64,000 bases of DNA, taken from Trichobilharzia szidati. Lineage: Eukaryota; Platyhelminthes; Trematoda; Strigeidida; Schistosomatidae. The notes beneath the pieces are model-generated. The model worked only from the letters and a program-made list of their open reading frames with translations, was not told where the DNA came from and did no database searches. Positions 1-57,458 of the stretch are shown piece by piece. The stretch spans positions 91,401,256 to 91,465,255 of the forward strand of contig OX235271.1 of the NCBI GenBank assembly GCA_944472155.2, read 5' to 3'. The position numbers and the translations under genes were made by a program. The stretch's first letter is position 1. Each line of letters begins with the position of its first letter.

Positions 1-1212
1 GAAAAGTGAATTACGTTTCCTCAAGGACGAGAATTCGCGTTTGTCGACACAAGTCACTGAACTTAAGGCGCAACTTGATGCTCTGCAGAATAAGTGAGGC
101 ATCTGGTGATAGAGTGAAACCTTCAAGAACTGTTCTTCAGTGCAAAAATGTACTTTTCAGAATGTAAACCTTCATAGGGGAATATTTATTGGTACTTCTT
201 TCTCTTAAAAACTAAGAAAATTATTTCCACCCCACGGACTATGTGATAATGTTTGTTACTGGCCCGATCACCAGTAATGCTTTTCTTTCTTTAGAAATTA
301 TTATTATTATTATTATTATTGTCATTATTCGAATGGTAAACTTACTTGACAATAATTACAACAGTATTCTTCTGACTATTCTCTATGCTACTCCCATTAT
401 GTGTTTATTGTACATTTTGTGACACAATAGAGACTAGATTTGTATTCTGTTAGATTCATGATGTAGTGAATTCGAGGGCGAATACTGCAGATGCAGCGCT
501 GATGTCGTCGTTCAGCTCCCAGGTAAAACAACATGGTGAAATGAGGAACTATGTTGCATAGCAATATATAAGTTGCTGGCAAATAGAAGTCAACTAGAGA
601 GTTTATTGAAATTAGCTACTTCAGCAGTTGCAACTTATTTATGATTTGAAATTGATCCTTACGACATATGCATATAAATGTTTCATTACGGAATGTGTCA
701 GATATTAACTTGAGGTACTAAATATGAACAGTGAGTCAACTAGTAAGGTAAAATGATGATGCATAATCATTAATTTTTAGAATAAAATTTTTATTATTGG
801 TTGGGATTTTGGCTATATGCCAGGACTACCAAGTACAAAAACTCCACAATACCTTATCTGGCACAGCTGTTATGTGATGAGAAATCCGTTAGGCATGACA
901 CGATCAACTTACTGCGGCACTCTAACAAATAGTTCCCATTAGCTTTTGTTCTCCTCTCTTTGTTACTATTATATTGTTGCTCACATATTCTATTACACAC
1001 TAATTTTATATTTCATATCCTGTGGTGCATTGTTTAAATATGTGAATGCAATGCTGTTCTTTTTTTATTTCTTTTATTTATCTTTTTTCTTTTTGTTGTT
1101 GTTGCTTTTTATTTTTAAAATCTTATAAAAATTAATGAGGTAATTAGATGCAATATTGTAATGCACGCTGAAAATTCCATACCTGTACCACAAATACTGT
1201 TTGGAATAAAGC

Positions 1213-1247
<35 letters not shown>

Positions 1248-1521
1248 GTGCATTTACTGGCTATTTGTATTCTAATATTCATGGATATATTACTGTATAG
1301 CCTGAAGTTGTTGAAATTAGTTGTTCACGCAAAAATCATCTTGTTCTGATTATATTATAGGGATATTTAGAGCGATATTTTGTGTCGCTATTTAAAATGT
1401 GTGCTATTTTGTCGACACAAATTGTTGCGGATCGAAGGAAGTATGTCTGACTGAATGTCAGTATAACATTGAAATATAATAATATTTACAGAGAATCAAC
1501 CTGTGTTTAAATAAATTTCAG

Positions 1522-1593
1522 GTTGATAAAGAACGCATACTTGTCGAACAAACGGTCGTTAAACAGAATGAGAAAATCAAAGAATTAAGATGA
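1522..1593 (+). pseudogene. Coiled-coil exon fragment in spacer (one per unit)
   Basis: It follows an acceptor-like 'aaatttcag' and encodes 23 residues rich in Glu, Lys, Val and Ile (begins VDKERILVEQ, ends KIKELR), then TGA. It has no start codon and no GT donor at its 3' end. It plausibly preceded the zipper exon in a parent gene. Copies start at 1522, 3881, 6279, 7969, 10322, 12666, 15010, 17354, 19731, 22069, 24413, 26724, 29068, 31412, 33747, 36091, 38429 and 40778. The acceptor AG is mutated to GG at 7969, 12666 and 15010, so those copies could not be spliced the same way. Confidence 0.6.
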
Positions 1594-2177
1594 CGCTTGA
1601 ATAATATGCCTGCAAAGCTTGCGTCTTTACTTGTAAATTATAAATGACCTTAAAATGTTCGCCCTCTAATATAATTAGCAATATTTTGTAACATAGTTCC
1701 TCATTTCACCATGTTGTTTTACCTGGGAGCTGAACGACGACATCAGCGCTGCATCTGCAGTATTCGCCCTCGAATTCACTACATCATGACTCTATTCTAA
1801 CTTTGAAATTGACAAGCATTTCATCACACAGAATAGAAATCTAGTCTCTATTGTGTCACAAAATGTACAATAAACACATAATGGGAGTAGCATAGAGAAT
1901 AGTCAGAAGAATACTGTTGTAATTATTGTCAAGTAAGTTTACCATTCGAATAATGACAATAATAATAATAATAATAATTTCTAAAGAAAGAAAAGCATTA
2001 CTGGTGATCGGGCCAGTAACAAACATTATCACATAGTCCGTGGGGTGGAAATAATTTTCTTAGTTTTTAAGAGAAAGAAGTACCAATAAATATTCCCCTA
2101 TGAAGGTTTACATTCTGAAAAGTACATTTTTGCACTGAAGAACAGTTCTTGAAGGTTTCACTCTATCACCAGATGCC

Positions 2178-2303
2178 TCACTTATTCTGCAGAGCATCAA
2201 GTTGCGCCTTAAGTTCAGTGACTTGTGTAGACAAACGCGAATTCTCGTCCTTGAGGAAACGTAATTCACTTTTCAGGTTGAGTTGGTTATGGCTAAGTTC
2301 TGT
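2178..2303 (-). pseudogene. Leucine-zipper exon fragment, antisense copy in left arm
   Basis: Mirror copy of the right-arm zipper piece on the minus strand, so each palindrome has two divergent copies. It differs from the right-arm copy by one Asn/Thr replacement near residue 6 (cataac versus catact). In the first left arms there is also a synonymous change in a Ser codon (tgtagaca versus tgtcgaca). It keeps the same stop codon. Confidence 0.68.
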
Positions 2304-2308
2304 TATCT

Positions 2309-4667
2309 ATCCTCTACTGAACGAGCTTAGATAACAGAACTTAGCCATACTCAACTCAACCTGAAAAGTGAATTACGTTTCCTCAAGGACGAGAATTCGC
2401 GTTTGTCGACACAAGTCACTGAACTTAAGGCGCAACTTGATGCTCTGCAGAATAAGTGAGGCATCTGGTGATAGAGTGAAACCTTCAAGAACTGTTCTTC
2501 AGTGCAAAAATGTACTTTTCAGAATGTAAACCTTCATAGGGGAATATTTATTGGTACTTCTTTCTCTTAAAAACTAAGAAAATTATTTCCACCCCACGGA
2601 CTATGTGATAATGTTTGTTACTGGCCCGATCACCAGTAATGCTTTTCTTTCTTTAGAAATTATTATTATTATTATTATTATTATTGTCATTATTCGAATG
2701 GTAAACTTACTTGACAATAATTACAACAGTATTCTTCTGACTATTCTCTATGCTACTCCCATTATGTGTTTATTGTACATTTTGTGACACAATAGAGACT
2801 AGATTTGTATTCTGTTAGATTCATGATGTAGTGAATTCGAGGGCGAATACTGCAGATGCAGCGCTGATGTCGTCGTTCAGCTCCCAGGTAAAACAACATG
2901 GTGAAATGGGGAACTATGTTGCATAGCAATATATAAGTTGCTGGCAAATAGAAGTCAACTAGAGAGTTTATTGAAATTAGCTACTTCAGCAGTTGCAACT
3001 TATTTATGATTTGAAATTGATCCTTACGACATATGCATATAAATGTTTCATTACGGAATGTGTCAGATATTAACTTGAGGTACTAAATATGAACAGTGAG
3101 TCAACTAGTAAGGTAAAATGATGATGCATAATCATTAATTTTTAGAATAAAATTTTTATTATTGGTTGGGATTTTGGCTATATGCCAGGACTACCAAGTA
3201 CAAAAACTCCACAATACCTTATCTGGCACAGCTGTTATGTGATGAGAAATCCGTTAGGCATGACACGATCAACTTACTGCGGCACTCTAACAAATAGTTC
3301 CCATTAGCTTTTGTTCTCCTTTCTTTGTTACTATTATATTGTTGCTCACATATTCGATTACACACTAATTTTATATTTCATATCCTGTGGTGCATTGTTT
3401 AAATATGTGAATGCAATGCTGTTCTTTTTTTATTTCTTTTATTTATCTTTTTTCTTTTTGTTGTTGTTGCTTTTTATTTTTAAAATCTTATAAAAATTAA
3501 TGAGGTAATTAGATGCAATATTGTAATGCACGCTGAAAATTCCATACCTGTACCACAAATACTGTTTGGAATAAAGCTATTATTATTATTATTATTATTA
3601 TTATTAGTGCATTTACTGGCTATTTGTATTCTAATATTCATGGATATATTACTGTATAGCCTGAAGTTGTTGAAATTAGTTGTTCACGCAAAAATCATCT
3701 TGTTCTGATTATATTATAGGGATATTTAGAGCGATATTTTGTGTCGCTATTTAAAATGTGTGCTATTTTGTCGACACAAATTGTTGCGGATCGAAGGAAG
3801 TATGTCTGACTGAATGTCAGTATAACATTGAAATATAATAATATTTACAGAGAATCAACCTGTGTTTAAATAAATTTCAGGTTGATAAAGAACGCATACT
3901 TGTCGAACAAACGGTCGTTAAACAGAATGAGAAAATCAAAGAATTAAGATGACGCTTGAATAATATGCCTGCAAAGCTTGCGTCTTTACTTGTAAATTAT
4001 AAATGACCTTAAAATGTTCGCCCTCTAATATAATTAGCAATATTTTGTAACATAGTTCCTCATTTCACCATGTTGTTTTACCTGGGAGCTGAACGACGAC
4101 ATCAGCGCTGCATCTGCAGTATTCGCCCTCGAATTCACTACATCATGACTCTATTCTAACTTTGAAATTGACAAGCATTTCATCACACAGAATAGAAATC
4201 TAGTCTCTATTGTGTCACAAAATGTACAATAAACACATAATGGGAGTAGCATAGAGAATAGTCAGAAGAATACTGTTGTAATTATTGTCAAGTAAGTTTA
4301 CCATTCGAATAATGACAATAATAATAATAATAATAATTTCTAAAGAAAGAAAAGCATTACTGGTGATCGGGCCAGTAACAAACATTATCACATAGTCCGT
4401 GGGGTGGAAATAATTTTCTTAGTTTTTAAGAGAAAGAAGTACCAATAAATATTCCCCTATGAAGGTTTACATTCTGAAAAGTACATTTTTGCACTGAAGA
4501 ACAGTTCTTGAAGGTTTCACTCTATCACCAGATGCCTCACTTATTCTGCAGAGCATCAAGTTGCGCCTTAAGTTCAGTGACTTGTGTAGACAAACGCGAA
4601 TTCTCGTCCTTGAGGAAACGTAATTCACTTTTCAGGTTGAGTTGGTTATGGCTAAGTTCTGTTATCT
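2309..4667 (+). repeat. Array unit 1 (2359 bp)
   Basis: Subtype A: spacer markers 'aggcatgacacg' and 'attttgtcgacac', with long uninterrupted TTA/TAA runs. Right arm short form, left arm long form. Confidence 0.95.
2334..2459 (+). pseudogene. Leucine-zipper C-terminal exon fragment in right arm (copy in every unit)
   Basis: An open frame of 41 codons plus TGA. Leucines stand at residues 3, 10, 17, 24, 31 and 38, an uninterrupted heptad series. The intervening a-type positions are L14, N21, V28 and L35; a buried Asn at such a position is typical of bZIP-style dimeric zippers. The piece has no start codon and is preceded by an acceptor-like 'ataacag', so it looks like the last exon of a coiled-coil or bZIP-like protein rather than a whole gene. 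The reading frame is preserved in every copy I read. The parent gene is not in this window and I cannot name it. Transcription is unproven. Confidence 0.7.
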
Positions 4668-5966
4668 ATCCTCTACTGAACGAGCTTAGATAACAGAACT
4701 TAGCCATACTCAACTCAACCTGAAAAGTGAATTACGTTTCCTCAAGGACGAGAATTCGCGTTTGTCGACACAAGTCACTGAACTTAAGGCGCAACTTGAT
4801 GCTCTGCAGAATAAGTGAGGCATCTGGTGATAGAGTGAAACCTTCAAGAACTGTTCTTCAGTGCAAAAATGTACTTTTCAGAATGTAAACCTTCATAGGG
4901 GAATATTTATTGGTACTTCTTTCTCTTAAAAACTAAGAAAATTATTTCCACCCCACGGACTATGTGATAATGTTTGTTACTGGCCCGATCACCAGTAATG
5001 CTTTTCTTTCTTTAGAAATTATTATTATTATTATTATTATTGTCATTATTCGAATGGTAAACTTACTTGACAATAATTACAACAGTATTCTTCTGACTAT
5101 TCTCTATGCTACTCCCATTATGTGTTTATTGTACATTTTGTGACACAATAGAGACTAGATTTCTATTCTGTGTGATGAAATGCTTGTCAATTTCAAAGTT
5201 AGAATAGAGTCATGATGTAGTGAATTCGAGGGCGAATACTGCAGATGCAGCGCTGATGTCGTCGTTCAGCTCCCAGGTAAAACAACATGGTGAAATGAGG
5301 AACTATGTTGCATAGCAATATATAAGTTGCTGGCAAATAGAAGTCAACTAGAGAGTTTATTGAAATTAGCTACTTCAGCAGTTGCAACTTATTTATGATT
5401 TGAAATTGATCCTTACGACATATGCATATAAATGTTTCATTACGGAATGTGTCAGATATTAACTTGAGGTACTAAATATGAACAGTGAGTCAACTAGTAA
5501 GGTAAAATGATGATGCATAATCATTAATTTTTAGAATAAAATTTTTATTATTGGTTGGGATTTTGGCTATATGCCAGGACTACCAAGTACAAAAACTCCA
5601 CAATACCTTATCTGGCACAGCTGTTATGTGATGAGAAATCCGTTAGGCATGACACGATCAACTTACTGCGGCACTCTAACAAATAGTTCCCATTAGCTTT
5701 TGTTCTCCTTTCTTTGTTACTATTATATTGTTGCTCACATATTCGATTACACACTAATTTTATATTTCATATCCTGTGGTGCATTGTTTAAATATGTGAA
5801 TGCAATGCTGTTCTTTTTTTATTTCTTTTATTTATCTTTTTTCTTTTTGTTGTTGTTGCTTTTTATTTTTAAAATCTTATAAAAATTAATGAGGTAATTA
5901 GATGCAATATTGTAATGCACGCTGAAAATTCCATACCTGTACCACAAATACTGTTTGGAATAAAGC

Positions 5967-6004
<38 letters not shown>

Positions 6005-7065
6005 GTGCATTTACTGGCTATTTGTATTCTAATATTCATGGATATATTACTGTATAGCCTGAAGTTGTTGAAATTAGTTGTTCACGCAAAAATCATCTTG
6101 TTCTGATTATATTATAGGGATATTTAGAGCGATATTTTGTGTCGCTATTTAAAATGTGTGCTATTTTGTCGACACAAATTGTTGCGGATCGAAGGAAGTA
6201 TGTCTGACTGAATGTCAGTATAACATTGAAATATAATAATATTTACAGAGAATCAACCTGTGTTTAAATAAATTTCAGGTTGATAAAGAACGCATACTTG
6301 TCGAACAAACGGTCGTTAAACAGAATGAGAAAATCAAAGAATTAAGATGACGCTTGAATAATATGCCTGCAAAGCTTGCGTCTTTACTTGTAAATTATAA
6401 ATGACCTTAAAATGTTCGCCCTCTAATATAATTAGCAATATTTTGTAACATAGTTCCTCATTTCACCATGTTGTTTTACCTGGGAGCTGAACGACGACAT
6501 CAGCGCTGCATCTGCAGTATTCGCCCTCGAATTCACTACATCATGACTCTATTCTAACTTTGAAATTGACAAGCATTTCATCACACAGAATAGAAATCTA
6601 GTCTCTATTGTGTCACAAAATGTACAATAAACACATAATGGGAGTAGCATAGAGAATAGTCAGAAGAATACTGTTGTAATTATTGTCAAGTAAGTTTACC
6701 ATTCGAATAATGACAATAATAATAATAATAATAATTTCTAAAGAAAGAAAAGCATTACTGGTGATCGGGCCAGTAACAAACATTATCACATAGTCCGTGG
6801 GGTGGAAATAATTTTCTTAGTTTTTAAGAGAAAGAAGTACCAATAAATATTCCCCTATGAAGGTTTACATTCTGAAAAGTACATTTTTGCACTGAAGAAC
6901 AGTTCTTGAAGGTTTCACTCTATCACCAGATGCCTCACTTATTCTGCAGAGCATCAAGTTGCGCCTTAAGTTCAGTGACTTGTGTCGACAAACGCGAATT
7001 CTCGTCCTTGAGGAAACGTAATTCACTTTTCAGGTTGAGTTGGTTATGGCTAAGTTCTGTTATCT
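4668..7065 (+). repeat. Array unit 2 (2398 bp, longest unit)
   Basis: Subtype A. Its right arm has the long form of the 33-bp indel (about 5160-5216), matching the left arm across the loop. The TTA run near 5968-6004 is the longest in the array, which accounts for part of the extra length. Confidence 0.95.
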
Positions 7066-8755
7066 ATCCTCTACTGAACGAGCTTGGATAACAGAACTTA
7101 GCCATACTCAACTCAACCTGAAAAGTGAATTACGTTTCCTCAAGGACGAGAATTCGCGTTTGTCGACACAAGTCACTGAACTTAAGGCGCAACTTGATGC
7201 TCTGCAGAATAAGTGAGGCATCTGGTGATAGAGTGAAACCTTCAAGAACTGTTCTTCAGTGCAAAAATGTACTTTTCAGAATGTAAACCTTCATAGGGGA
7301 ATATTTATTGGTACTTCTTTCTCTTAAAAACTAAGAAAATTATTTCCACCCCACGGACTATGTGATAATGTTTGTTACTGGCCCGATCACCAGTAATGCT
7401 TTTCTTTCTTTAGAAATTATTATTATTATTATTATTATTGTCATTATTCNNNNNNNNNNNNNNNNNNNNNNNNNNNNNNNNNNNNNNNNNNNNNNNNNNN
7501 NNNNNNNNNNNNNNNNNNNNNNNNNNNNNNNNNNNNNNNNNNNNNNNNNNNNNNNNNNNNNNNNNNNNNNNNNNNNNNNNNNNNNNNNNNNNNNNNNNNN
7601 NNNNNNNNNNNNNNNNNNNNNNNNNNNNNNNNNNNNNNNNNNNNNNNNNNNNNNNNNNNNNNNNNNNNNNNNNNNNNNNNNNNNNNNNNNNNNNNNNNNN
7701 NNNNNNNNNNNNNNNNNNNNNNNNNNNNNNNNNNNNNNNNNNNNNNNNNNNNNNNNNNNNNNNNNNNNNNNNNNNNNNNNNNNNNNNNNNNNNNNNNNNN
7801 NNNNNNNNNNNNNNNNNNNNNNNNNNNNNNNNNNNNNNNNNNNNNNNNNNNNNNNNNNNNNNNNNNNNNNNNNNNNNNNNNNNNNNNNNNNNNNNNNNNN
7901 NNNNNNNNNNNNNNNNNNNNNNNNNNNNNNNNNNNNNNNNNNNNNNNNNGTGTTTAAATAAATTTCGGGTTGATAAAGAACGCATACTTGTCGAACAAAC
8001 GGTCGTTAAACAGAATGAGAAAATCAAAGAATTAAGATGACGCTTGAATAATATGCCTGCAAAGCTTGCGTCTTTACTTGTAAATTATAAATGACCTTAA
8101 AATGTTCGCCCTCTAATATAATTAGCAATATTTTGTAACACAGTTCCTCATTTCACCATGTTGTTTTACCTGGGAGCTGAACGACGACATCAGCGCTGCA
8201 TCTGCAGTATTCGCCCTCGAATTCACTACATCATGACTCTATTCTAACTTTGAAATTGACAAGCATTTCATCACACAGAATAGAAATCTAGTCTCTATTG
8301 TGTCACAAAATGTACAATAAACACATAATGGGAGTAGCATAGAGAATAGTCAGAAGAATACTGTTGTAATTATTGTCAAGTAAGTTTACCATTCGAATAA
8401 TGACAATAATAATAACAATAATAATTTCTAAAGAAAGAAAAGCATTACTGGTGATCGGGCCAGTAACAAACATTATCACATAGTCCGTGGGGTGGAAATA
8501 ATTTTCTTAGTTTTTAAGAGAAAGAAGTACCAATAAATATTCCCCTATGAAGGTTTACATTCTGAAAAGTACATTTTTGCACTGAAGAACAGTTCTTGAA
8601 GGTTTCACTCTATCACCAGATGCCTCACTTATTCTGCAGAGCATCAAGTTGCGCCTTAAGTTCAGTGACTTGTGTCGACAAACGCGAATTCTCGTCCTTG
8701 AGGAAACGTAATTCACTTTTCAGGTTGAGTTGGTTATGGCTAAGTTCTGTTATCT
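7066..8755 (+). repeat. Array unit 3, interrupted by assembly gap
   Basis: Apparent length is only 1690 bp because 500 Ns replace sequence. The left side of the gap matches subtype A and the right side subtype B. The splice-acceptor-like AG before the spacer coding piece is GG here (about 7967). Confidence 0.9.
7450..7949. other. Assembly gap of 500 N
   Basis: Exactly 500 Ns, a conventional placeholder length. In the complete unit beginning at 11109 the same two flanking sequences are 1157 bases apart (11490-12646), so about 650 bases more than the placeholder are missing, if the join is right at all. Confidence 0.98.
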
Positions 8756-11108: not shown

Positions 11109-13452
11109 ATCCTCTACTGAACGAGCTTAGATTACAGAACTTAGCCATACTCAACTCAACCTGAAAAGTGAATTACGTTTCCTCAAGGACGAGAATTCGC
11201 GTTTGTCGACACAAGTCACTGAACTTAAGGCGCAACTTGATGCTCTGCAGAATAAGTGAGGCATCTGGTGATAGAGTGAAACCTTCAAGAACTGTTCTTC
11301 AGTGCAAAAATGTACTTTTCAGAATGTAAACCTTCATAGGGGAATATTTATTGGTACTTCTTTCTCTTAAAAACTAAGAAAATTATTTCCACCCCACGGA
11401 CTATGTGATAATGTTTGTTACTGGCCCGATCACCAGTAATGCTTTTCTTTCTTTAGAAATTATTATTGTTATTATTATTGTCATTATTCGAATGGTAAAC
11501 TTACTTGACAATAATTACAACAGTATTCTTCTGACTATTCTCTATGCTACTCCCATTATGTGTTTATTGTACATTTTGTGACACAATAGAGACTAGATTT
11601 CTATTCTGTTAGATTCATGATGTAGTGAATTCGAGGGCGAATACTGCAGATGCAGCGCTGATGTCGTCGTTCAGCTCCCAGGTAAAACAACATGGTGAAA
11701 TGGGGAACTATGTTGCATAGCAATATATAAGTTGCTGGCAAATAGAAGTCAACTAGAGAGTTTATTGAAATTAGCTACTTCAGCAGTTGCAACTTATTTA
11801 TGATTTGAAATTGATCCTTACGACATATGCATATAAATGTTTCATTACGGAATGTGTCAGATATTAACTTGAGGTACTAAATATGAACAGTGAGTCAACT
11901 AGTAAGGTAAAATGATGATGCATAATCATTAATTTTTAGAATAAAATTTTTATTATTGGTTGGGATTTTGGCTATATGCCAGGACTACCAAGTACAAAAA
12001 CTCCACAATACCTTATCTGGCACAGCTGTTATGTGATGAGAAATCCGTTAGGTATGACACGATCAACTTACTGCGGCACTCTAACAAATAGTTCCCATTA
12101 GCTTTTGTTCTCCTTTCTTTGTTACTATTATATTGTTGCTCACATATTCTATTACACACTAATTTTATATTTCATATCCTGTGGTGCATTGTTTAAATAT
12201 GTGAATGCAATGCTGTTCTTTTTTTATTTCTTTTATTTATCTTTTTTCTTTTTGTTGTTGTTGCTTTTTATTTTTAAAATCTTATAAAAATTAATGAGGT
12301 AATTAGATGCAATATTGTAATGCACGCTGAAAATTCCATACCTGTACCACAAATACTGTTTGGAATAAAGCTATTATTATTATTATCATTAGTGCATTTA
12401 CTGGCTATTTGTATTCTAATATTCATGGATATATTACTGTATAGCCTGAAGTTGTTGAAATTAGTTGTTCACGCAAAAATCATCTTGTTCTGATTATATT
12501 ATAGGGATATTTAGAGCGATATTTTGTGTCGCTATTTAAAATGTGTGCTATTTTCTCGACACAAATTGTTGCGGATCGAAGGAAGTATGTCTGACTGAAT
12601 GTCAGTATAACATTGAAATATAATAATATTTACAGAGAATCAACCTGTGTTTAAATAAATTTCGGGTTGATAAAGAACGCATACTTGTCGAACAAACGGT
12701 CGTTAAACAGAATGAGAAAATCAAAGAATTAAGATGACGCTTGAATAATATGCCTGCAAAGCTTGCGTCTTTACTTGTAAATTATAAATGACCTTAAAAT
12801 GTTCGCCCTCTAATATAATTAGCAATATTTTGTAACATAGTTCCTCATTTCACCATGTTGTTTTACCTGGGAGCTGAACGACGACATCAGCGCTGCATCT
12901 GCAGTATTCGCCCTCGAATTCACTACATCATGACTCTATTCTAACTTTGAAATTGACAAGCATTTCATCACACAGAATAGAAATCTAGTCTCTATTGTGT
13001 CACAAAATGTACAATAAACACATAATGGGAGTAGCATAGAGAATAGTCAGAAGAATACTGTTGTAATTATTGTCAAGTAAGTTTACCATTCGAATAATGA
13101 CAATAATAATAACAATAATAATTTCTAAAGAAAGAAAAGCATTACTGGTGATCGGGCCAGTAACAAACATTATCACATAGTCCGTGGGGTGGAAATAATT
13201 TTCTTAGTTTTTAAGAGAAAGAAGTACCAATAAATATTCCCCTATGAAGGTTTACATTCTGAAAAGTACATTTTTGCACTGAAGAACAGTTCTTGAAGGT
13301 TTCACTCTATCACCAGATGCCTCACTTATTCTGCAGAGCATCAAGTTGCGCCTTAAGTTCAGTGACTTGTGTCGACAAACGCGAATTCTCGTCCTTGAGG
13401 AAACGTAATTCACTTTTCAGGTTGAGTTGGTTATGGCTAAGTTCTGTTATCT
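11109..13452 (+). repeat. Array unit 5 (2344 bp)
   Basis: Subtype B of modal length. The left arm before its loop still has an uninterrupted TAA run (about 10756-10780) while the right arm is interrupted, so the arms differ at this marker. The acceptor-like AG is GG at about 12664. Confidence 0.95.
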
Positions 13453-15796
13453 ATCCTCTACTGAACGAGCTTAGATTACAGAACTTAGCCATACTCAACT
13501 CAACCTGAAAAGTGAATTACGTTTCCTCAAGGACGAGAATTCGCGTTTGTCGACACAAGTCACTGAACTTAAGGCGCAACTTGATGCTCTGCAGAATAAG
13601 TGAGGCATCTGGTGATAGAGTGAAACCTTCAAGAACTGTTCTTCAGTGCAAAAATGTACTTTTCAGAATGTAAACCTTCATAGGGGAATATTTATTGGTA
13701 CTTCTTTCTCTTAAAAACTAAGAAAATTATTTCCACCCCACGGACTATGTGATAATGTTTGTTACTGGCCCGATCACCAGTAATGCTTTTCTTTCTTTAG
13801 AAATTATTATTGTTATTATTATTGTCATTATTCGAATGGTAAACTTACTTGACAATAATTACAACAGTATTCTTCTGACTATTCTCTATGCTACTCCCAT
13901 TATGTGTTTATTGTACATTTTGTGACACAATAGAGACTAGATTTCTATTCTGTTAGATTCATGATGTAGTGAATTCGAGGGCGAATACTGCAGATGCAGC
14001 GCTGATGTCGTCGTTCAGCTCCCAGGTAAAACAACATGGTGAAATGAGGAACTATGTTGCATAGCAATATATAAGTTGCTGGCAAATAGAAGTCAACTAG
14101 AGAGTTTATTGAAATTAGCTACTTCAGCAGTTGCAACTTATTTATGATTTGAAATTGATCCTTACGACATATGCATATAAATGTTTCATTACGGAATGTG
14201 TCAGATATTAACTTGAGGTACTAAATATGAACAGTGAGTCAACTAGTAAGGTAAAATGATGATGCATAATCATTAATTTTTAGAATAAAATTTTTATTAT
14301 TGGTTGGGATTTTGGCTATATGCCAGGACTACCAAGTACAAAAACTCCACAATACCTTATCTGGCACAGCTGTTATGTGATGAGAAATCCGTTAGGTATG
14401 ACACGATCAACTTACTGCGGCACTCTAACAAATAGTTCCCATTAGCTTTTGTTCTCCTTTCTTTGTTACTATTATATTGTTGCTCACATATTCTATTACA
14501 CACTAATTTTATATTTCATATCCTGTGGTGCATTGTTTAAATATGTGAATGCAATGCTGTTCTTTTTTTATTTCTTTTATTTATCTTTTTTCTTTTTGTT
14601 GTTGTTGCTTTTTATTTTTAAAATCTTATAAAAATTAATGAGGTAATTAGATGCAATATTGTAATGCACGCTGAAAATTCCATACCTGTACCACAAATAC
14701 TGTTTGGAATAAAGCTATTATTATTATTATCATTAGTGCATTTACTGGCTATTTGTATTCTAATATTCATGGATATATTACTGTATAGCCTGAAGTTGTT
14801 GAAATTAGTTGTTCACGCAAAAATCATCTTGTTCTGATTATATTATAGGGATATTTAGAGCGATATTTTGTGTCGCTATTTAAAATGTGTGCTATTTTCT
14901 CGACACAAATTGTTGCGGATCGAAGGAAGTATGTCTGACTGAATGTCAGTATAACATTGAAATATAATAATATTTACAGAGAATCAACCTGTGTTTAAAT
15001 AAATTTCGGGTTGATAAAGAACGCATACTTGTCGAACAAACGGTCGTTAAACAGAATGAGAAAATCAAAGAATTAAGATGACGCTTGAATAATATGCCTG
15101 CAAAGCTTGCGTCTTTACTTGTAAATTATAAATGACCTTAAAATGTTCGCCCTCTAATATAATTAGCAATATTTTGTAACATAGTTCCTCATTTCACCAT
15201 GTTGTTTTACCTGGGAGCTGAACGACGACATCAGCGCTGCATCTGCAGTATTCGCCCTCGAATTCACTACATCATGACTCTATTCTAACTTTGAAATTGA
15301 CAAGCATTTCATCACACAGAATAGAAATCTAGTCTCTATTGTGTCACAAAATGTACAATAAACACATAATGGGAGTGGCATAGAGAATAGTCAGAAGAAT
15401 ACTGTTGTAATTATTGTCCAGTAAGTTTACCATTCGAATAATGACAATAATAATAACAATAATAATTTCTAAAGAAAGAAAAGCATTACTGGTGATCGGG
15501 CCAGTAACAAACATTATCACATAGTCCGTGGGGTGGAAATAATTTTCTTAGTTTTTAAGAGAAAGAAGTACCAATAAATATTCCCCTATGAAGGTTTACA
15601 TTCTGAAAAGTACATTTTTGCACTGAAGAACAGTTCTTGAAGGTTTCACTCTATCACCAGATGCCTCACTTATTCTGCAGAGCATCAAGTTGCGCCTTAA
15701 GTTCAGTGACTTGTGTCGACAAACGCGAATTCTCGTCCTTGAGGAAACGTAATTCACTTTTCAGGTTGAGTTGATTATGGCTAAGTTCTGTTATCT
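13453..15796 (+). repeat. Array unit 6 (2344 bp)
   Basis: Subtype B of modal length. The acceptor-like AG is GG at about 15008. Private changes occur in the left arm near 15377 and 15419. Confidence 0.95.
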
Positions 15797-22855: not shown

Positions 22856-25166
22856 ATCCTCTACTGAACGAGCTTAGATTACAGAACTTAGCCATACTCA
22901 ACTCAACCTGAAAAGTGAATTACGTTTCCTCAAGGACGAGAATTCGCGTTTGTCGACACAAGTCACTGAACTTAAGGCGCAACTTGATGCTCTGCAGAAT
23001 AAGTGAGGCATCTGGTGATAGAGTGAAACCTTCAAGAACTGTTCTTCAGTGCAAAAATGTACTTTTCAGAATGTAAACCTTCATAGGGGAATATTTATTG
23101 GTACTTCTTTCTCTTAAAAACTAAGAAAATTATTTCCACCCCACGGACTATGTGATAATGTTTGTTACTGGCCCGATCACCAGTAATGCTTTTCTTTCTT
23201 TAGAAATTATTATTGTTATTATTATTGTCATTATTCGAATGGTAAACTTACTTGACAATAATTACAACAGTATTCTTCTGACTATTCTCTATGCTACTCC
23301 CATTATGTGTTTATTGTACATTTTGTGACACAATAGAGACTAGATTTGTATTCTGTTAGATTCATGATGTAGTGAATTCGAGGGCGAATACTGCAGATGC
23401 AGCGCTGATGTCGTCGTTCAGCTCCCAGGTAAAACAACATGGTGAAATGAGGAACTATGTTGCATAGCAATATATAAGTTGCTGGCAAATAGAAGTCAAC
23501 TAGAGAGTTTATTGAAATTAGCTACTTCAGCAGTTGCAACTTATTTATGATTTGAAATTGATCCTTACGACATATGCATATAAATGTTTCATTACGGAAT
23601 GTGTCAGATATTAACTTGAGGTACTAAATATGAACAGTGAGTCAACTAGTAAGGTAAAATGATGATGCATAATCATTAATTTTTAGAATAAAATTTTTAT
23701 TATTGGTTGGGATTTTGGCTATATGCCAGGACTACCAAGTACAAAAACTCCACAATACCTTATCTGGCACAGCTGTTATGTGATGAGAAATCCGTTAGGT
23801 ATGACACGATCAACTTACTGCGGCACTCTAACAAATAGTTCCCATTAGCTTTTGTTCTCCTTTCTTTGTTACTATTATATTGTTGCTCACATATTCTATT
23901 ACACACTAATTTTATATTTCATATCCTGTGGTGCATTGTTTAAATATGTGAATGCAATGCTGTTCTTTTTTTATTTCTTTTATTTATCTTTTTTCTTTTT
24001 GTTGTTGTTGCTTTTTATTTTTAAAATCTTATAAAAATTAATGAGGTAATTAGATGCAATATTGTAATGCACGCTGAAAATTCGATACCTGTACCACAAA
24101 TACTGTTTGGAATAAAGCTATTATTATTATTATCATTAGTGCATTTACTGGCTATTTGTATTCTAATATTCATGGATATATTACTGTATAGCCTGAAGTT
24201 GTTGAAATTAGTTGTTCACGCAAAAATCATCTTGTTCTGATTATATTATAGGGATATTTAGAGCGATATTTTGTGTCGCTATTTAAAATGTGTGCTATTT
24301 TCTCGACACAAATTGTTGCGGATCGAAGGAAGTATGTCTGACTGAATGTCAGTATAACATTGAAATATAATAATATTTACAGAGAATCAACCTGTGTTTA
24401 AATAAATTTCAGGTTGATAAAGAACGCATACTTGTCGAACAAACGGTCGTTAAACAGAATGAGAAAATCAAAGAATTAAGATGACGCTTGAATAATATGC
24501 CTGCAAAGCTTGCGTCTTTACTTGTAAATTATAAATGACCTTAAAATGTTCGCCCTCTAATATAATTAGCAATATTTTGTAACATAGTTCCTCATTTCAC
24601 CATGTTGTTTTACCTGGGAGCTGAACGACGACATCAGCGCTGCATCTGCAGTATTCGCCCTCGAATTCACTACATCATGAATCTAACAGAATAGAAATCT
24701 AGTCTCTATTGTGTCACAAAATGTACAATAAACACATAATGGGAGTAGCATAGAGAATAGTCAGAAGAATACTGTTGTAATTATTGTCAAGTAAGTTTAC
24801 CATTCGAATAATGACAATAATAATAACAATAATAATTTCTAAAGAAAGAAAAGCATTACTGGTGATCGGGCCAGTAACAAACATTATCACATAGTCCGTG
24901 GGGTGGAAATAATTTTCTTAGTTTTTAAGAGAAAGAAGTACCAATAAATATTCCCCTATGAAGGTTTACATTCTGAAAAGTACATTTTTGCACTGAAGAA
25001 CAGTTCTTGAAGGTTTCACTCTATCACCAGATGCCTCACTTATTCTGCAGAGCATCAAGTTGCGCCTTAAGTTCAGTGACTTGTGTCGACAAACGCGAAT
25101 TCTCGTCCTTGAGGAAACGTAATTCACTTTTCAGGTTGAGTTGAGTATGGCTAAGTTCTGTAATCT
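22856..25166 (+). repeat. Array unit 10 (2311 bp)
   Basis: Subtype B. It is the only unit whose left arm has the short indel form (about 24676-24693), which explains the 33-bp shorter length. It leads into an inverted loop. Confidence 0.95.
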
Positions 25167-27510
25167 AAGCTCGTTCAGTAGAGGATAGATAACAGAACTT
25201 AGCCATAACCAACTCAACCTGAAAAGTGAATTACGTTTCCTCAAGGACGAGAATTCGCGTTTGTCGACACAAGTCACTGAACTTAAGGCGCAACTTGATG
25301 CTCTGCAGAATAAGTGAGGCATCTGGTGATAGAGTGAAACCTTCAAGAACTGTTCTTCAGTGCAAAAATGTACTTTTCAGAATGTAAACCTTCATAGGGG
25401 AATATTTATTGGTACTTCTTTCTCTTAAAAACTAAGAAAATTATTTCCACCCCACGGACTATGTGATAATGTTTGTTACTGGCCCGATCACCAGTAATGC
25501 TTTTCTTTCTTTAGAAATTATTATTGTTATTATTATTGTCATTATTCGAATGGTAAACTTACTTGACAATAATTACAACAGTATTCTTCTGACTATTCTC
25601 TATGCTACTCCCATTATGTGTTTATTGTACATTTTGTGACACAATAGAGACTAGATTTCTATTCTGTTAGATTCATGATGTAGTGAATTCGAGGGCGAAT
25701 ACTGCAGATGCAGCGCTGATGTCGTCGTTCAGCTCCCAGGTAAAACAACATGGTGAAATGAGGAACTATGTTGCATAGCAATATATAAGTTGCTGGCAAA
25801 TAGAAGTCAACTAGAGAGTTTATTGAAATTAGCTACTTCAGCAGTTGCAACTTATTTATGATTTGAAATTGATCCTTACGACATATGCATATAAATGTTT
25901 CATTACGGAATGTGTCAGATATTAACTTGAGGTACTAAATATGAACAGTGAGTCAACTAGTAAGGTAAAATGATGATGCATAATCATTAATTTTTAGAAT
26001 AAAATTTTTATTATTGGTTGGGATTTTGGCTATATGCCAGGACTACCAAGTACAAAAACTCCACAATACCTTATCTGGCACAGCTGTTATGTGATGAGAA
26101 ATCCGTTAGGTATGACACGATCAACTTACTGCGGCACTCTAACAAATAGTTCCCATTAGCTTTTGTTCTCCTTTCTTTGTTACTATTATATTGTTGCTCA
26201 CATATTCTATTACACACTAATTTTATATTTCATATCCTGTGGTGCATTGTTTAAATATGTGAATGCAATGCTGTTCTTTTTTTATTTCTTTTATTTATCT
26301 TTTTTCTTTTTGTTGTTGTTGCTTTTTATTTTTAAAATCTTATAAAAATTAATGAGGTAATTAGATGCAATATTGTAATGCACGCTGAAAATTCCATACC
26401 TGTACCACAAATACTGTTTGGAATAAAGCTATTATTATTATTATCATTAGTGCATTTACTGGCTATTTGTATTCTAATATTCATGGATATATTACTGTAT
26501 AGCCTGAAGTTGTTGAAATTAGTTGTTCACGCAAAAATCATCTTGTTCTGATTATATTATAGGGATATTTAGAGCGATATTTTGTGTCGCTATTTAAAAT
26601 GTGTGCTATTTTCTCGACACAAATTGTTGCGGATCGAAGGAAGTATGTCTGACTGAATGTCAGTATAACATTGAAATATAATAATATTTACAGAGAATCA
26701 ACCTGTGTTTAAATAAATTTCAGGTTGATAAAGAACGCATACTTGTCGAACAAACGGTCGTTAAACAGAATGAGAAAATCAAAGAATTAAGATGACGCTT
26801 GAATAATATGCCTGCAAAGCTTGCGTCTTTACTTGTAAATTATAAATGACCTTAAAATGTTCGCCCTCTAATATAATTAGCAATATTTTGTAACATAGTT
26901 CCTCATTTCACCATGTTGTTTTACCTGGGAGCTGAACGACGACATCAGCGCTGCATCTGCAGTATTCGCCCTCGAATTCACTACATCATGACTCTATTCT
27001 AACTTTGAAATTGACAAGCATTTCATCACACAGAATAGAAATCTAGTCTCTATTGTGTCACAAAATGTACAATAAACACATAATGGGAGTAGCATAGAGA
27101 ATAGTCAGAAGAATACTGTTGTAATTATTGTCAAGTAAGTTTACCATTCGAATAATGACAATAATAATAACAATAATAATTTCTAAAGAAAGAAAAGCAT
27201 TACTGGTGATCGGGCCAGTAACAAACATTATCACATAGTCCGTGGGGTGGAAATAATTTTCTTAGTTTTTAAGAGAAAGAAGTACCAATAAATATTCCCC
27301 TATGAAGGTTTACATTCTGAAAAGTACATTTTTGCACTGAAGAACAGTTCTTGAAGGTTTCACTCTATCACCAGATGCCTCACTTATTCTGCAGAGCATC
27401 AAGTTGCGCCTTAAGTTCAGTGACTTGTGTCGACAAACGCGAATTCTCGTCCTTGAGGAAACGTAATTCACTTTTCAGGTTGAGTTGGTTATGGCTAAGT
27501 TCTGTTATCT
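25167..27510 (+). repeat. Array unit 11 (2344 bp, inverted loop)
   Basis: The loop at 25167-25186 is the reverse complement of the standard loop. The arm-specific flanks are also swapped (ttgagtatgg on the left, cataaccaac on the right). The right arm is short form. Confidence 0.95.
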
Positions 27511-36877: not shown

Positions 36878-39215
36878 ATCCTCTACTGAACGAGCTTAGA
36901 TAACAGAACTTAGCCATACTCAACTCAACCTGAAAAGTGAATTACGTTTCCTCAAGGACGAGAATTCGCGTTTGTCGACACAAGTCACTGAACTTAAGGC
37001 GCAACTTGATGCTCTGCAGAATAAGTGAGGCATCTGGTGATAGAGTGAAACCTTCAAGAACTGTTCTTCAGTGCAAAAATGTACTTTTCAGAATGTAAAC
37101 CTTCATAGGGGAATATTTATTGGTACTTCTTTCTCTTAAAAACTAAGAAAATTATTTCCACCCCACGGACTATGTGATAATGTTTGTTACTGGCCCGATC
37201 ACCAGTAATGCTTTTCTTTCTTTAGAAATTATTATTATTATTGTCATTATTCGAATGGTAAACTTACTTGACAATAATTACAACAGTATTCTTCTGACTA
37301 TTCTCTATGCTACTCCCATTATGTGTTTATTGTACATTTTGTGACACAATAGAGACTAGATTTCTATTCTGTTAGATTCATGATGTAGTGAATTCGAGGG
37401 CGAATACTGCAGATGCAGCGCTGATGTCGTCGTTCAGCTCCCAGGTAAAACAACATGGTGAAATGGGGAACTATGTTGCATAGCAATATATAAGTTGCTG
37501 GCAAATAGAAGTCAACTAGAGAGTTTATTGAAATTAGCTACTTCAGCAGTTGCAACTTATTTATGATTTGAAATTGATCCTTACGACATATGCATATAAA
37601 TGTTTCATTACGGAATGTGTCAGATATTAACTTGAGGTACTAAATATGAACAGTGAGTCAACTAGTAAGGTAAAATGATGATGCATAATCATTAATTTTT
37701 AGAATAAAATTTTTATTATTGGTTGGGATTTTGGCTATATGCCAGGACTACCAAGTACAAAAACTCCACAATACCTTATCTGGCACAGCTGTTATGTGAT
37801 GAGAAATCCGTTAGGTATGACACGATCAACTTACTGCGGCACTCTAACAAATAGTTCCCATTAGCTTTTGTTCTCCTTTCTTTGTTACTATTATATTGTT
37901 GCTCACATATTCTATTACACACTAATTTTATATTTCATATCCTGTGGTGCATTGTTTAAATATGTGAATGCAATGCTGTTCTTTTTTTATTTCTTTTATT
38001 TATCTTTTTTCTTTTTGTTGTTGTTGCTTTTTATTTTTAAAATCTTATAAAAATTAATGAGGTAATTAGATGCAATATTGTAATGCACGCTGAAAATTCC
38101 ATACCTGTACCACAAATACTGTTTGGAATAAAGCTATTATTATTATTATCATTAGTGCATTTACTGGCTATTTGTATTCTAATATTCATGGATATATTAC
38201 TGTATAGCCTGAAGTTGTTGAAATTAGTTGTTCACGCAAAAATCATCTTGTTCTGATTATATTATAGGGATATTTAGAGCGATATTTTGTGTCGCTATTT
38301 AAAATGTGTGCTATTTTCTCGACACAAATTGTTGCGGATCGAAGGAAGTATGTCTGACTGAATGTCAGTATAACATTGAAATATAATAATATTTACAGAG
38401 AATCAACCTGTGTTTAAATAAATTTCAGGTTGATAAAGAACGCATACTTGTCGAACAAACGGTCGTTAAACAGAATGAGAAAATCAAAGAATTAAGATGA
38501 CGCTTGAATAATATGCCTGCAAAGCTTGCGTCTTTACTTGTAAATTATAAATGACCTTAAAATGTTCGCCCTCTAATATAATTAGCAATATTTTGTAACA
38601 TAGTTCCTCATTTCACCATGTTGTTTTACCTGGGAGCTGAACGACGACATCAGCGCTGCATCTGCAGTATTCGCCCTCGAATTCACTACATCATGACTCT
38701 ATTCTAACTTTGAAATTGACAAGCATTTCATCACACAGAATAGAAATCTAGTCTCTATTGTGTCACAAAATGTACAATAAACACATAATGGGAGTAGCAT
38801 AGAGAATAGTCAGAAGAATACTGTTGTAATTATTGTCAAGTAAGTTTACCATTCGAATAATGACAATAATAATAACAATAATAATTTCTAAAGAAAGAAA
38901 AGCATTACTGGTGATCGGGCCAGTAACAAACATTATCACATAGTCCGTGGGGTGGAAATAATTTTCTTAGTTTTTAAGAGAAAGAAGTACCAATAAATAT
39001 TCCCCTATGAAGGTTTACATTCTGAAAAGTACATTTTTGCACTGAAGAACAGTTCTTGAAGGTTTCACTCTATCACCAGATGCCTCACTTATTCTGCAGA
39101 GCATCAAGTTGCGCCTTAAGTTCAGTGACTTGTGTCGACAAACGCGAATTCTCGTCCTTGAGGAAACGTAATTCACTTTTCAGGTTGAGTTGATTATGGC
39201 TAAGTTCTGTAATCT
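36878..39215 (+). repeat. Array unit 16 (2338 bp)
   Basis: Subtype B with a short uninterrupted right-arm TTA run (about 37230-37244). The left arm across the loop is interrupted. Confidence 0.95.
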
Positions 39216-41564
39216 AAGCTCGTTCAGTAGAGGATAGATAACAGAACTTAGCCATACTCAACTCAACCTGAAAAGTGAATTACGTTTCCTCAAGGACGAG
39301 AATTCGCGTTTGTCGACACAAGTCACTGAACTTAAGGCGCAACTTGATGCTCTGCAGAATAAGTGAGGCATCTGGTGATAGAGTGAAACCTTCAAGAACT
39401 GTTCTTCAGTGCAAAAATGTACTTTTCAGAATGTAAACCTTCATAGGGGAATATTTATTGGTACTTCTTTCTCTTAAAAACTAAGAAAATTATTTCCACC
39501 CCACGGACTATGTGATAATGTTTGTTACTGGCCCGATCACCAGTAATGCTTTTCTTTCTTTAGAAATTATTATTGTTATTATTATTGTCATTATTCGAAT
39601 GGTAAACTTACTTGACAATAATTACAACAGTATTCTTCTGACTATTCTCTATGCTACTCCCATTATGTGTTTATTGTACATTTTGTGACACAATAGAGAC
39701 TAGATTTCTATTCTGTTAGATTCATGATGTAGTGAATTCGAGGGCGAATACTGCAGATGCAGCGCTGATGTCGTCGTTTAGCTCCCAGGTAAAACAACAT
39801 GGTGAAATGAGGAACTATGTTGCATAGCAATATATAAGTTGCTGGCAAATAGAAGTCAACTAGAGAGTTTATTGAAATTAGCTACTTCAGCAGTTGCAAC
39901 TTATTTATGATTTGAAATTGATCCTTACGACATATGCATATAAATGTTTCATTACGGAATGTGTTAGATATTAACTTGAGGTACTAAATATGAACAGTGA
40001 GTCAACTAGTAAGGTAAAATGATGATGCATAATCATTAATTTTTAGAATAAAATTTTTATTATTGGTTGGGATTTTGGCTATATGCCAGGACTACCAAGT
40101 ACAAAAACTCCACAATACCTTATCTGGCACAGCTGTTATGTGATGAGAAATCCGTTAGGTATGACACGATCAACTTACTGCGGCACTCTAACAAATAGTT
40201 CCCATTAGCTTTTGTTCTCCTTTCTTTGTTACTATTATATTGTTGCTCACATATTCTATTACACACTAATTTTATATTTCATATCCTGTGGTGCATTGTT
40301 TAAATATGTGAATGCAATGCTGTTCTTTTTTATTTCTTTTATTTATCTTTTTTCTTTTTGTTGTTGTTGCTTTTTATTTTTAAAATCTTATAAAAATTAA
40401 TGAGGTAATTAGATGCAATATTGTAATGCACGCTGAAAATTCCATACCTGTACCACAAATACTGTTTGGAATAAAGCTATTATTATTATTATTATTATCA
40501 TTAGTGCATTTACTGGCTATTTGTATTCTAATATTCATGGATATATTACTGTATAGCCTGAAGTTGTTGAAATTAGTTGTTCACGCAAAAATCATCTTGT
40601 TCTGATTATATTATAGGGATATTTAGAGCGATATTTTGTGTCGCTATTTAAAATGTGTGCTATTTTCTCGACACAAATTGTTGCGGATCGAAGGAAGTAT
40701 GTCTGACTGAATGTCAGTATAACATTGAAATATAATAATATTTACAGAGAATCAACCTGTGTTTAAATAAATTTCAGGTTGATAAAGAACGCATACTTGT
40801 CGAACAAACGGTCGTTAAACAGAATGAGAAAATCAAAGAATTAAGATGACGCTTGAATAATATGCCTGCAAAGCTTGCGTCTTTACTTGTAAATTATAAG
40901 TGACCTTAAAATGTTCGCCCTCTAATATAATTAGCAATATTTTGTAACATAGTTCCTCATTTCACCATGTTGTTTTACCTGGGAGCTGAACGACGACATC
41001 AGCGCTGCATCTGCAGTATTCGCCCTCGAATTCACTACATCATGACTCTATTCTAACTTTGAAATTGACAAGCATTTCATCACACAGAATAGAAATCTAG
41101 TCTCTATTGTGTCACAAAATGTACAATAAACACATAATGGGAGTAGCATAGAGAATAGTCAGAAGAATACTGTTGTAATTATTGTCAAGTAAGTTTACCA
41201 TTCGAATAATGACAATAATAATAACAATAATAATTTCTAAAGAAAGAAAAGCATTACTGGTGATCGGGCCAGTAACAAACATTATCACATAGTCCGTGGG
41301 GTGGAAATAATTTTCTTAGTTTTTAAGAGAAAGAAGTACCAATAAATATTCCCCTATGAAGGTTTACATTCTGAAAAGTACATTTTTGCACTGAAGAACA
41401 GTTCTTGAAGGTTTCACTCTATCACCAGATGCCTCACTTATTCTGCAGAGCATCAAGTTGCGCCTTAAGTTCAGTGACTTGTGTCGACAAACGCGAATTC
41501 TCGTCCTTGAGGAAACGTAATTCACTTTTCAGGTTGAGTTGATTATGGCTAAGTTCTGTTATCT
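39216..41564 (+). repeat. Array unit 17 (2349 bp, inverted loop)
   Basis: The loop at 39216-39235 is inverted but the outer arm markers are not (left ttgattatgg, right catactcaac; left arm long form, right arm short form). The inversion is therefore confined to a few tens of bases round the loop. Confidence 0.95.
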
Positions 41565-42203
41565 ATCCTCTACTGAACGAGCTTAGATTACAGAACTTAG
41601 CCATACTCAACTCAACCTGAAAAGTGAATTACGTTTCCTCAAGGACGAGAATTCGCGTTTGTCGACACAAGTCACTGAACTTAAGGCGCAACTTGATGCT
41701 CTGCAGAATAAGTGAGGCATCTGGTGATAGAGTGAAACCTTCAAGAACTGTTCTTCAGTGCAAAAATGTACTTTTCAGAATGTAAACCTTCATAGGGGAA
41801 TATTTATTGGTACTTCTTTCTCTTAAAAACTAAGAAAATTATTTCCACCCCACGGACTATGTGATAATGTTTGTTACTGGCCCGATCACCAGTAATGCTT
41901 TTCTTTCTTTAGAAATTATTATTATTATTATTATTGTCATTATTCGAATGGTAAACTTACTTGACAATAATTACAACAGTATTCTTCTGACTATTCTCTA
42001 TGCTACTCCCATTATGTGTTTATTGTACATTTTGTGACACAATAGAGACTAGATTTCTATTCTGTGTGATGAAATGCTTGTCAATTTCAAAGTTAGAATA
42101 GAGTCATGATGTAGTGAATTCGAGGGCGAATACTGCAGATGCAGCGCTGATGTCGTCGTTCAGCTCCCAGGTAAAACAACATGGTGAAATGAGGAACTAT
42201 GTT
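41565..42203 (+). repeat. Array unit 18 (terminal right arm only)
   Basis: Last palindrome. The right arm has the long indel form (about 42056-42105). At its end it continues as 'gttacaaaata', the complement of the left-arm outer edge, instead of the usual 'gttgcatagc'. The array stops here and single-copy DNA begins. Confidence 0.93.
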
Positions 42204-43914
42204 ACAAAATACTGTTTGTCGACAGAGATTCTAGTGTTGTAATTATGGAATGTTTAGCTGTTATTTTTGATTTCAACCTGATTGCGAAGCTCAAGGTACA
42301 TATAAATTTTTCAGGTTATTCGAGTGGCGTATGTGTGAATGCTCACTGTTTGTAACTGAGAGAAGACGTTATTAGGAACCAACTGTTGACAGTGAATCAA
42401 ATAATTTGTCAGAATAATTGGTTGTAGGAGCACACATAAGCGTAGTACGTGATTGTTTAGCATTTGGTTTGCGTGTGGGATCAAATTCGAAAACTGTAGA
42501 ACTGGGACGAAAAAGTTATCGACTATTGATTGATTTTGCAATCGTTGTTTTCGTTCAGTGGCGTCAGGTACTCACAGGTAAATGACCGCCTATATTTAAT
42601 TATCTGATCGTACCATGAGATGATTACTGGCCAACAGAGAATACAAAGTGTTGTAGACAGTGTGATGATATGAAAGTATATATATATATATATACGTGAC
42701 CGAAGTCTCAGTGATGAGAATCTACGAATTGCGTGAAAAAAGGTTAAGTAATAGGATGTATGGCTCATAAATTTTACTAATAAAGTTAGTAAAATTTCAT
42801 TTCTTCATGTAAAAGAAAAATATATATGATATTAGTAGTGTTAATATACCACTGATTATTTAAACATTGGAAGTTGAGTTTATAAGCACCTTTCTGACAT
42901 TTGTGTTTTCACACTACAACTGTGCTAATTATAATAATTATTAGCCGTTTGAGCATAAATTCTTGTGAAATTTCTGCTTCTACCAAAGGACATGCGAAAA
43001 AAGAAAAACAACGTTCAACAGAATAAAGAGGATATTGGCTATCCGACAGAATGTGACTTCAGCCATCTGCTTGCAAGAATTAAAATGTCTATCAACAACA
43101 ATTAGTCAGTTTAAAAGAGAGTCTATGAAATAAAAGATAATAATGTGCAGCTTCACTTGTAGTTCGTTATGATATAACCAATTTAACAAAGGGAACGAAC
43201 TGTATAAGATAACGTCGCACTTTTCACATGAGCTGAAGTGTTGTCCATTACTTTTACGGTGCTCTTAAGCTGATGTAATTTCCTAGTTGTAAGGAATTGT
43301 ATGAAAAATCCGTTAAATTTCCGCCTTAATCTTGAACCACACATCTTTTACATCGCTTCATGTACATGCATCAAGTGAAGAATTGAGGGCACATGTCACG
43401 GTTAATGTTACTGCTGTTCAACCTATATTTGGTTTTAACGATAAAATTTTTAGTTCAAAAGTTATTGCATTACAAATAGGTTTGACAAAAGTGAATACAA
43501 ATGAAGTAAAAACAATGCAGAAGTTATTGCATTTCTGTAAACCAAATTTTATTAAACACTCTAAAAAAATTGCATACAAAAATCCAATACAGTGTATACA
43601 TATATTTACACCATTTTTCTCTTTAGAACTAAGAAATGTACTTCATGTATGAAAAACAGCAGCTAACAAAAAAGGATTCAATTGAACTTTTTATGGTCTT
43701 ATTTTAAGGTATAATTCCAGTGATGGGTCAGTTATATGCCATCTTGATGACTCCAAGAAATTGAAAACTTCGTCTAAATCATCTTTGAGGACGATCACAA
43801 GCGGACGACAAGACTTCAGGCTCTAGTGGATGAAAACAGAAATCAGATAAAATTTAAAAACACAATATAAGCAGATGGTAAAACAGCATAGACAAAAAGG
43901 TGGTTCATATAAGA
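42204..43914. other. Single-copy flank right of the array, no recognised gene
   Basis: Leaving the array, the sequence is AT-rich with short open frames only. A possible coding patch at 42247-42291 (MECLAVIFDFNLIAKLK, then a GTACAT donor-like site) is too short to call. Open frames at 42311-42768 (minus) and 43332-43652 (plus) have no recognisable motif and the composition of random AT-rich sequence. A (TA)n run lies at 42677-42694. Confidence 0.5.
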
Positions 43915-49413: not shown

Positions 49414-49482
49414 CTGTTAATGTGAAAATTTAAAAAAAATATATACATATATATGATGAATTGACATTTATACTGACGTTAC

Positions 49483-50938: not shown

Positions 50939-50941
50939 CTA

Positions 50942-51340: not shown

Positions 51341-51449
51341 CATTATTTAGTTACGTTAGAACAAGTTTATCCAAGTACTATTCCAATCATAATTCTGTCT
51401 TTTGAATAACTTCGTAACATGGCGTTACCTTCTGGTTTTTAATTACTAA

Positions 51450-57457: not shown

Positions 57458-57458
57458 G

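Follow-up and report, generated by a model that had tools for sequence, protein, structure and literature searches.

Among the loci described so far, the closest in form are the tandem hairpin RNA (hpRNA) clusters of Drosophila. The hp-CG4068 cluster consists of 20 tandem copies in D. melanogaster and nine in D. simulans, and the hp-tHMG cluster of D. simulans, which is derived from the tHMG2 gene, holds 13 inverted repeats within ~27 kb; such clusters yield Dcr-2-dependent siRNAs (PMC10317233). It is held that hpRNAs generally derive from duplications of their targets, and the Nmy and Tmy hpRNAs of D. simulans are inverted repeats that match a target gene family and play a role in drive (PMC10292708). 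Among blood flukes, Schistosoma japonicum has endo-siRNAs, some of them described as derived from pseudogenes; the main siRNA sources in that account are transposons and trans natural antisense transcripts, with hairpin RNAs appearing as a general class only (PMC3149011). Schistosoma mansoni, in which females are ZW, carries large satellite blocks on its W chromosome (PMC3701142). Here we describe a tandem array of palindromes from another blood fluke, Trichobilharzia szidati; a literature search covering titles and abstract openings returned no description of this array, which does not prove that none exists.

The window, that is, the whole 64,000-nucleotide stretch of DNA that was analysed (contig OX235271.1), is occupied at positions 1..42203 by a tandem array of ~2344-bp units, each comprising a ~1.2-kb palindrome and a ~1.12-kb spacer. 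K-mers most often recur at a spacing of 2344 bases, and repetition extends over 1–42 kb of the window, ending near 42.2 kb. The preliminary description of some 18 tandem palindromes with ~0.6-kb arms at a near-constant period of 2344 is borne out, with 18 palindrome centres located in the array. Seventeen palindromes are complete (1192–1261 bp), whereas the remaining one, p03 (centre 7075.5), is cut by a gap. The left arm together with half of the loop measures 629 bp in 16 of the 18 palindromes (623 and 596 bp in the other two), and the right arm is 596 bp long in 11 of the 17 complete ones (587–632 bp in the others), short right arms being mostly due to a 33-bp deletion relative to the left arm. 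Apart from the spacer cut by the gap, the spacers are 1119–1137 bp long (17/18), and the distance between successive left-arm starts is exactly 2344 in seven of the 16 intervals that avoid the gap (range 2311–2398). The centre of the palindrome is an 18-base stretch in which the arms differ at six of the nine facing positions; a search of the window for the 23-base loop sequence gave 17 exact hits (15 on the + strand and two on the − strand), compared to 0.00 expected in shuffles.

The palindromes, initially regarded as perfect, are near-perfect: across the 17 that were measured, the arms are 97.65–98.64% identical over aligned bases, indels apart, and the longest perfect run is 250–596 bp. 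The near-identity of the units, from which recent amplification or continuing homogenisation had been deduced, holds, given that 17 spacers differ by 0.20% on average. The uniform array over 42 kb likewise stands as an array, but an assembly gap of 500 N at 7450..7949, in the right arm of the third palindrome, had been overlooked. As this gap lies inside the array, the copy number is not fixed by the present assembly; the units to its left form a distinct subfamily. Furthermore, the window starts inside a right arm (that of p00), so that the array continues off the left end of the window. At the opposite end, the rightmost palindrome, p18 (40946..42203), forms the array edge and keeps the 33-bp segment in its right arm.

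The repeat had been taken for an unrecognised satellite family, a view superseded by the finding that exons of a single Trichobilharzia gene family account for both arms and for part of the spacer. In a typical palindrome, p06, the left arm (12834..13453, − strand) carries the last exon in antisense with the 3′ region outward, the 18-base central stretch or loop (13454..13471) adjoins the start of the last exon, and the right arm (13472..14058, + strand), with the 33-bp deletion, is in sense orientation. Common to the right arm (sense) and the left arm (antisense) is a 42-codon open stretch with leucine at every seventh residue, which in p06 lies at 13325..13450 on the − strand (42 codons, ITELSHNQLNLKSELRFLKDENSRLSTQVTELKAQLDALQNK, followed by a stop) and at 13475..13600 on the + strand, where this leucine zipper has 36 of its 42 residues as in residues 309–350 of P0001. 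All 36 complete arm exons are open, a count that excludes the right arm of p00, cut by the window edge, and a single residue (threonine or asparagine) is variable among them. One match was obtained when residues 1–38 of the exon served as a protein query: P0001 (E 1.7e-10, 87% identity), an unnamed coiled-coil protein of 350 residues from T. szidati. When P0001 was compared to the window by tblastn, its residues 309–350 were recovered from 18 left arms and 18 right ones, together with a truncated copy where the window begins, and its residues 181–217 from all 18 spacers.

The internal exon in the spacer shares 35 of 37 residues with P0001 181–217. It is preceded by CAG in 15 copies and by CGG in three, and GTAAAT follows it in 18/18. 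An in-frame TGA replaces an arginine codon in every copy; for instance, in the CGG-preceded copy at 15010..15120 (+ strand), which is followed by GTAAAT, the TGA is at 15079–15081. Identity of the spacer exon to T. szidati P0001 is 92–95%, compared to 63–65% for T. regenti P0004 over a shorter matched part, which, on the evidence of the gene family, places the array in a Trichobilharzia close to T. szidati. The exon boundaries coincide with splice signals and, with intron edges present around the exons, the unit represents genomic DNA of one gene rather than a processed copy. The spacer also includes, at 14389..14729 on the + strand, a 3′ tail with ATT repeats and AATAAA at 14708, which is 91.5% identical to a copy at 52760–53092; judging from its form (ATT tail, dispersed copies) rather than from a library match, this tail is of the LINE type. 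The array almost certainly derives from the Trichobilharzia coiled-coil gene.

Several other assignments were considered and rejected. Mediator subunit 4 (MED4) matched the spacer exon with best E values of 0.39 and 0.76, whereas P0001 holds both exons at far better identity. The tblastn comparisons with P0001–P0004 gave no match to MNSESTSK, a candidate first exon in the spacer. For a bZIP or homeobox-associated zipper, 15 Pfam matches were listed per arm version (E up to 1), all below the curated cut-offs. The 42-codon exon matched only generic coiled coils in the PDB (E 0.062 or worse), Rfam and ARAGORN (bacterial code) found nothing, and no exact match to a 57-base arm pattern turned up in viral_contigs or genome_contigs, which are virus and prokaryote collections, may lack the fluke's own genome and carry little weight here.

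A search with P0001, in which candidates were scored up to a limit of 7995, gave at least four proteins, namely, P0001, P0002 and P0003 from T. szidati and P0004 from T. regenti; more remote members may be masked by other coiled-coil proteins. P0001 and P0002 are 350 aa long, P0003 291 aa and P0004 368 aa; identity to P0001 is 79% for P0002, 88% over 74% of the query for P0003 and 42% for P0004. The last exon of the array matches P0001, P0002 and P0004. No Pfam family scored above the cut-off with P0001, the best PDB match had an E value of 0.95, both for P0001 alone and with a piece of it, and a profile of the four members retrieved trichodiene synthase at E 0.035, none of which is convincing. 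A resemblance of the parent protein to Spindly-type dynein adaptors was evaluated using the Spindly motif definition xLF/AxE (PMC11310688) and the dynein adaptor background (PMC9481740, PMC10011603). The motif is present in two of the four members (SLFSE in P0001 and SLFDE in P0004), yet 901 of 2000 shuffled P0001 sequences contain it as well, and the CC1 box AAxxG is found in none of the four, so that a Spindly/BICD-type dynein adaptor is unsupported. Neither Pfam, PDB nor motif evidence points to a function for the protein.

The flank of the array points to its place of origin. An exon-like stretch on the + strand at 43651..43830, 1.5 kb beyond the array edge, includes a segment (43689–43784) that encodes 32 of 32 residues of P0003 243–274, a region of P0003 equivalent in position to the last exons of P0001. 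Frame shifts flank this segment on both sides and show that it belongs to a gene related to P0003 rather than to the annotated copy itself. At the array edge, the right arm of p18, alone among the 18 right-arm ends visible (p00 counted, p03 lost in the gap), extends eight more bases outward in the manner of the left-arm outer end, for which three left arms served as comparison; the other 17 right-arm ends have a common, different junction. Because a stretch matching the end of P0003 sits so close to the edge, the array probably grew in place at a P0003-like gene copy, the downstream exon of which still borders it; our confidence goes no further because the edge match is only eight bases long. 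A dispersed repeat starts at 43904, and with this neighbour the P0003-like stretch may instead be a transposon-borne copy. Retroelement and gene sequence flank the array; among it, at 49.1–49.4 kb, is an exon of a tRNA-selenocysteine-associated protein that is 96% identical to T. regenti P0005. P0005 represents four sequences, and none of the clusters listed bears the name T. szidati.

Individual units bear marks of rearrangement. The loop is inverted in two of the 18 palindromes, p11 (24581..25772) and p17 (38597..39821). In p11, the proximal arms were inverted along with the loop, adjacent arm differences being swapped, and the 33-bp segment is absent from both arms; in p17, the exchange point lies between arm alignment columns 14 and 31. 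Of the left arms, 17/18 have the 33-bp segment, whereas 15/18 right arms lack it (p00 counted, p03 not); p02, p08 and p18 have it in both. As read from the sequence, the loop flips and the moved arm differences are traces of inversion and arm-to-arm exchange. Mean substitution differences amount to 0.30% for the left arms (18 compared) and 0.42% for the right arms (17 compared), versus the 0.20% of the spacers; the arm distances omit the first 12 columns as well as the right arms of p00 (window edge) and p03 (gap), and the spacer distances leave out spacer s04, which is cut by the gap. Left and right arms differ by 0.72% within a palindrome and by 0.70% between palindromes, so that the pairing of arms is not specially maintained. 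Across units, arms of the same side are more alike than left and right arms are, indicating that in-register exchange between units is the stronger force. Similarity of spacers drops with distance along the array (Mantel r 0.53, with none of 2000 shuffles as high, 16 units), also within the right block (r 0.38, 5/2000 shuffles, 14 units), whereas that of arms does not (r 0.07, 561/2000 shuffles); whole units are intermediate (r 0.23, 126/2000 shuffles). Units 3 and 4 were excluded from these tests.

We propose, with a probability of about 0.4, that the array is a gene-derived tandem locus of the hpRNA type making siRNAs against its parent gene family. Its shape and origin closely parallel those of the Drosophila hpRNA clusters, and a silencing function is what we infer from this parallel. 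As the sequence shows, a Trichobilharzia coiled-coil gene was partly rearranged, its last exon and 3′ region becoming a head-to-head inverted duplication; this inverted block, with the upstream internal exon and an intron holding the LINE-type tail, was amplified into ~2344-bp units, and arms have exchanged sequence and loops have flipped. A transcript running through the array would form ~0.6-kb duplexes, which Dicer would cut into siRNAs, and these might silence the full-length paralogues via the matching last exon and 3′ region. The array has the long, highly complementary arms and the several tandem copies of a tandem hpRNA locus, and the source gene of the arms also exists outside the locus, as judged from the proteins P0001, P0002 and P0004. 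The RNA of p08 folds into a single hairpin of −1136.5 kcal/mol, a value for one palindrome without shuffles at that length. Conservation of arms beyond that of the spacer, which selection would lead one to expect but which is not strictly defining, is not observed (0.30–0.42% in arms versus 0.20%). Two further features speak against silencing. On the + strand, the left arm has AATAAA signals at 13013 and 13229, ahead of hairpin closure, and this arrangement is mirrored on the − strand. In addition, the spacer-exon donor and the right-arm-exon acceptor could splice out the left arm, and the hairpin would thereby be removed. Nor do the siRNA sources reported for S. japonicum, chiefly transposons and trans natural antisense transcripts (PMC3149011), favour the silencing reading.

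We regard it as equally probable that the array, of the same origin, is a silent gene-derived satellite, that is, an untranscribed or functionless array of pseudogenes that spread and is kept uniform by unequal exchange and by recombination within the palindromes. The array is long, tandem and homogenised, as satellites are; the stop in all 18 spacer exons, the local homogenisation of spacers but not of arms, and an arm variation at least equal to that of the spacers all speak for such an array. Inverted copies are usually unstable, and their persistence is left unexplained by this reading alone; however, young age would suffice to account for it, and nothing decisive speaks against a silent satellite. 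A satellite of female-specific (W) or centromeric heterochromatin, kept for a chromatin or structural role, is a much less probable alternative. The large satellite blocks on the W chromosome of S. mansoni lend it some appeal, but the main text of that report contains the string ‘palindrom’ 0 times and ‘inverted’ once, about Z/W blocks (PMC3701142), and the retroelement and gene sequence at the array borders, with the tRNA-selenocysteine-associated protein exon, does not fit either. Splicing of the spacer exon to the right-arm exon into many copies of a short coiled-coil protein, in other words an array of coding mini-genes, is very unlikely: although the donor of the former and the acceptor of the latter are both in phase 0 by comparison with P0001, and the 36 complete arm exons are open, the TGA interrupts 18/18 spacer exons, the spacer-exon acceptor reads CGG in 3/18, the AG of the right-arm acceptor is lost in one of 18 (p03) and no start codon was established. 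Least credible of all is a sequencing or assembly artefact, in which fold-back reads would have produced false palindromes, because such an artefact yields identical arms, whereas here arm-specific differences such as the 33-bp segment persist across units, the centre is asymmetric in 18/18 and the units differ among themselves; still, with the 500-N gap within the array and its left end not closed, the assembled copy number may be wrong even if the palindromes are real.

Any RNA made from the array would fold into long hairpins such as serve gene silencing in other animals. Tandem hpRNA clusters made from pieces of target genes are, in the accounts cited, a Drosophila story tied to genomic conflict (PMC10292708, PMC10317233), and the structural parallel in a blood fluke would make the question of hpRNA conflicts outside flies directly testable. 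A bolder and rather unlikely extension is that the array is a flatworm counterpart of the Drosophila clusters that contend over sex-chromosome drive, having arisen in place inside one member of a fast-evolving coiled-coil family of bird schistosomes, with siRNAs that restrain the other members, possibly in the germ line and possibly in a sex-linked manner. Irrespective of function, the array offers a natural record of the behaviour of tandem palindromes, from the inversion of loops and the swapping of arms to the drift of spacers, legible unit by unit.

Sex-chromosome ampliconic palindromes, including those of apes, undergo arm-to-arm gene conversion, and the fluke arms similarly exchange sequence and invert; unlike in ampliconic palindromes, the arms are 0.6 kb long and tandem, and exchange between them is not stronger than that between units. 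Like the W satellites of S. mansoni, the array consists of schistosomatid repeats in a large tandem block, but the W6–W12 entries are 264–1000 long (taken as bases), several being transposon-like, and a word search of the main text of PMC3701142 finds them without palindromes. The Nmy and Tmy hpRNAs share with the array inverted repeats that match a gene family, although they are described as related autosomal loci with inverted repeats rather than as tandem arrays. The resemblance is closest to hp-CG4068 and hp-tHMG, which likewise are tandem inverted repeats in similar number; as with hp-tHMG, the arms come from a protein gene of which full-length paralogues exist. The fluke array differs from these Drosophila clusters in belonging to another phylum, and in that its arms consist of the terminal exon of a coiled-coil gene together with the 3′ region.

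The units of the tandem array that lie to the left of the 500-nt gap (1-7449) make up a subfamily in which the TAT/ATT runs are longer and substitutions are held in common. The scaffold join at this gap (7450-7949) may have placed side by side parts of the array that are far apart.

An LTR retroelement occupies 54486-57813 on the minus strand, where direct repeats of 355 bp each (54486-54840 and 57459-57813; 98.9% identity) flank reading frames for a reverse transcriptase (55293-56186) and a DUF7041 protein (56917-57402). An integrase-like reading frame (50939-51346, minus strand), with a Pfam score under the cut-offs, is perhaps part of a second LTR element. The reverse transcriptase fragment at 61660-62004, also on the minus strand, exceeds the Pfam cut-off and, judged by eye, looks to be of the non-LTR type. 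A 186-bp stretch at 60754-60939 shows a 91% match to the reverse complement of itself, and dispersed copies related to it are found at 43904-44052 and 53328-53470.

Two adjacent RRM-like reading frames are located on the minus strand at 49100-49720, one scoring over the Pfam cut-off and the other under it. Across 67 residues, the frame at 49100-49429 shares 96% identity with the tRNA-selenocysteine-associated protein of T. regenti (P0005).
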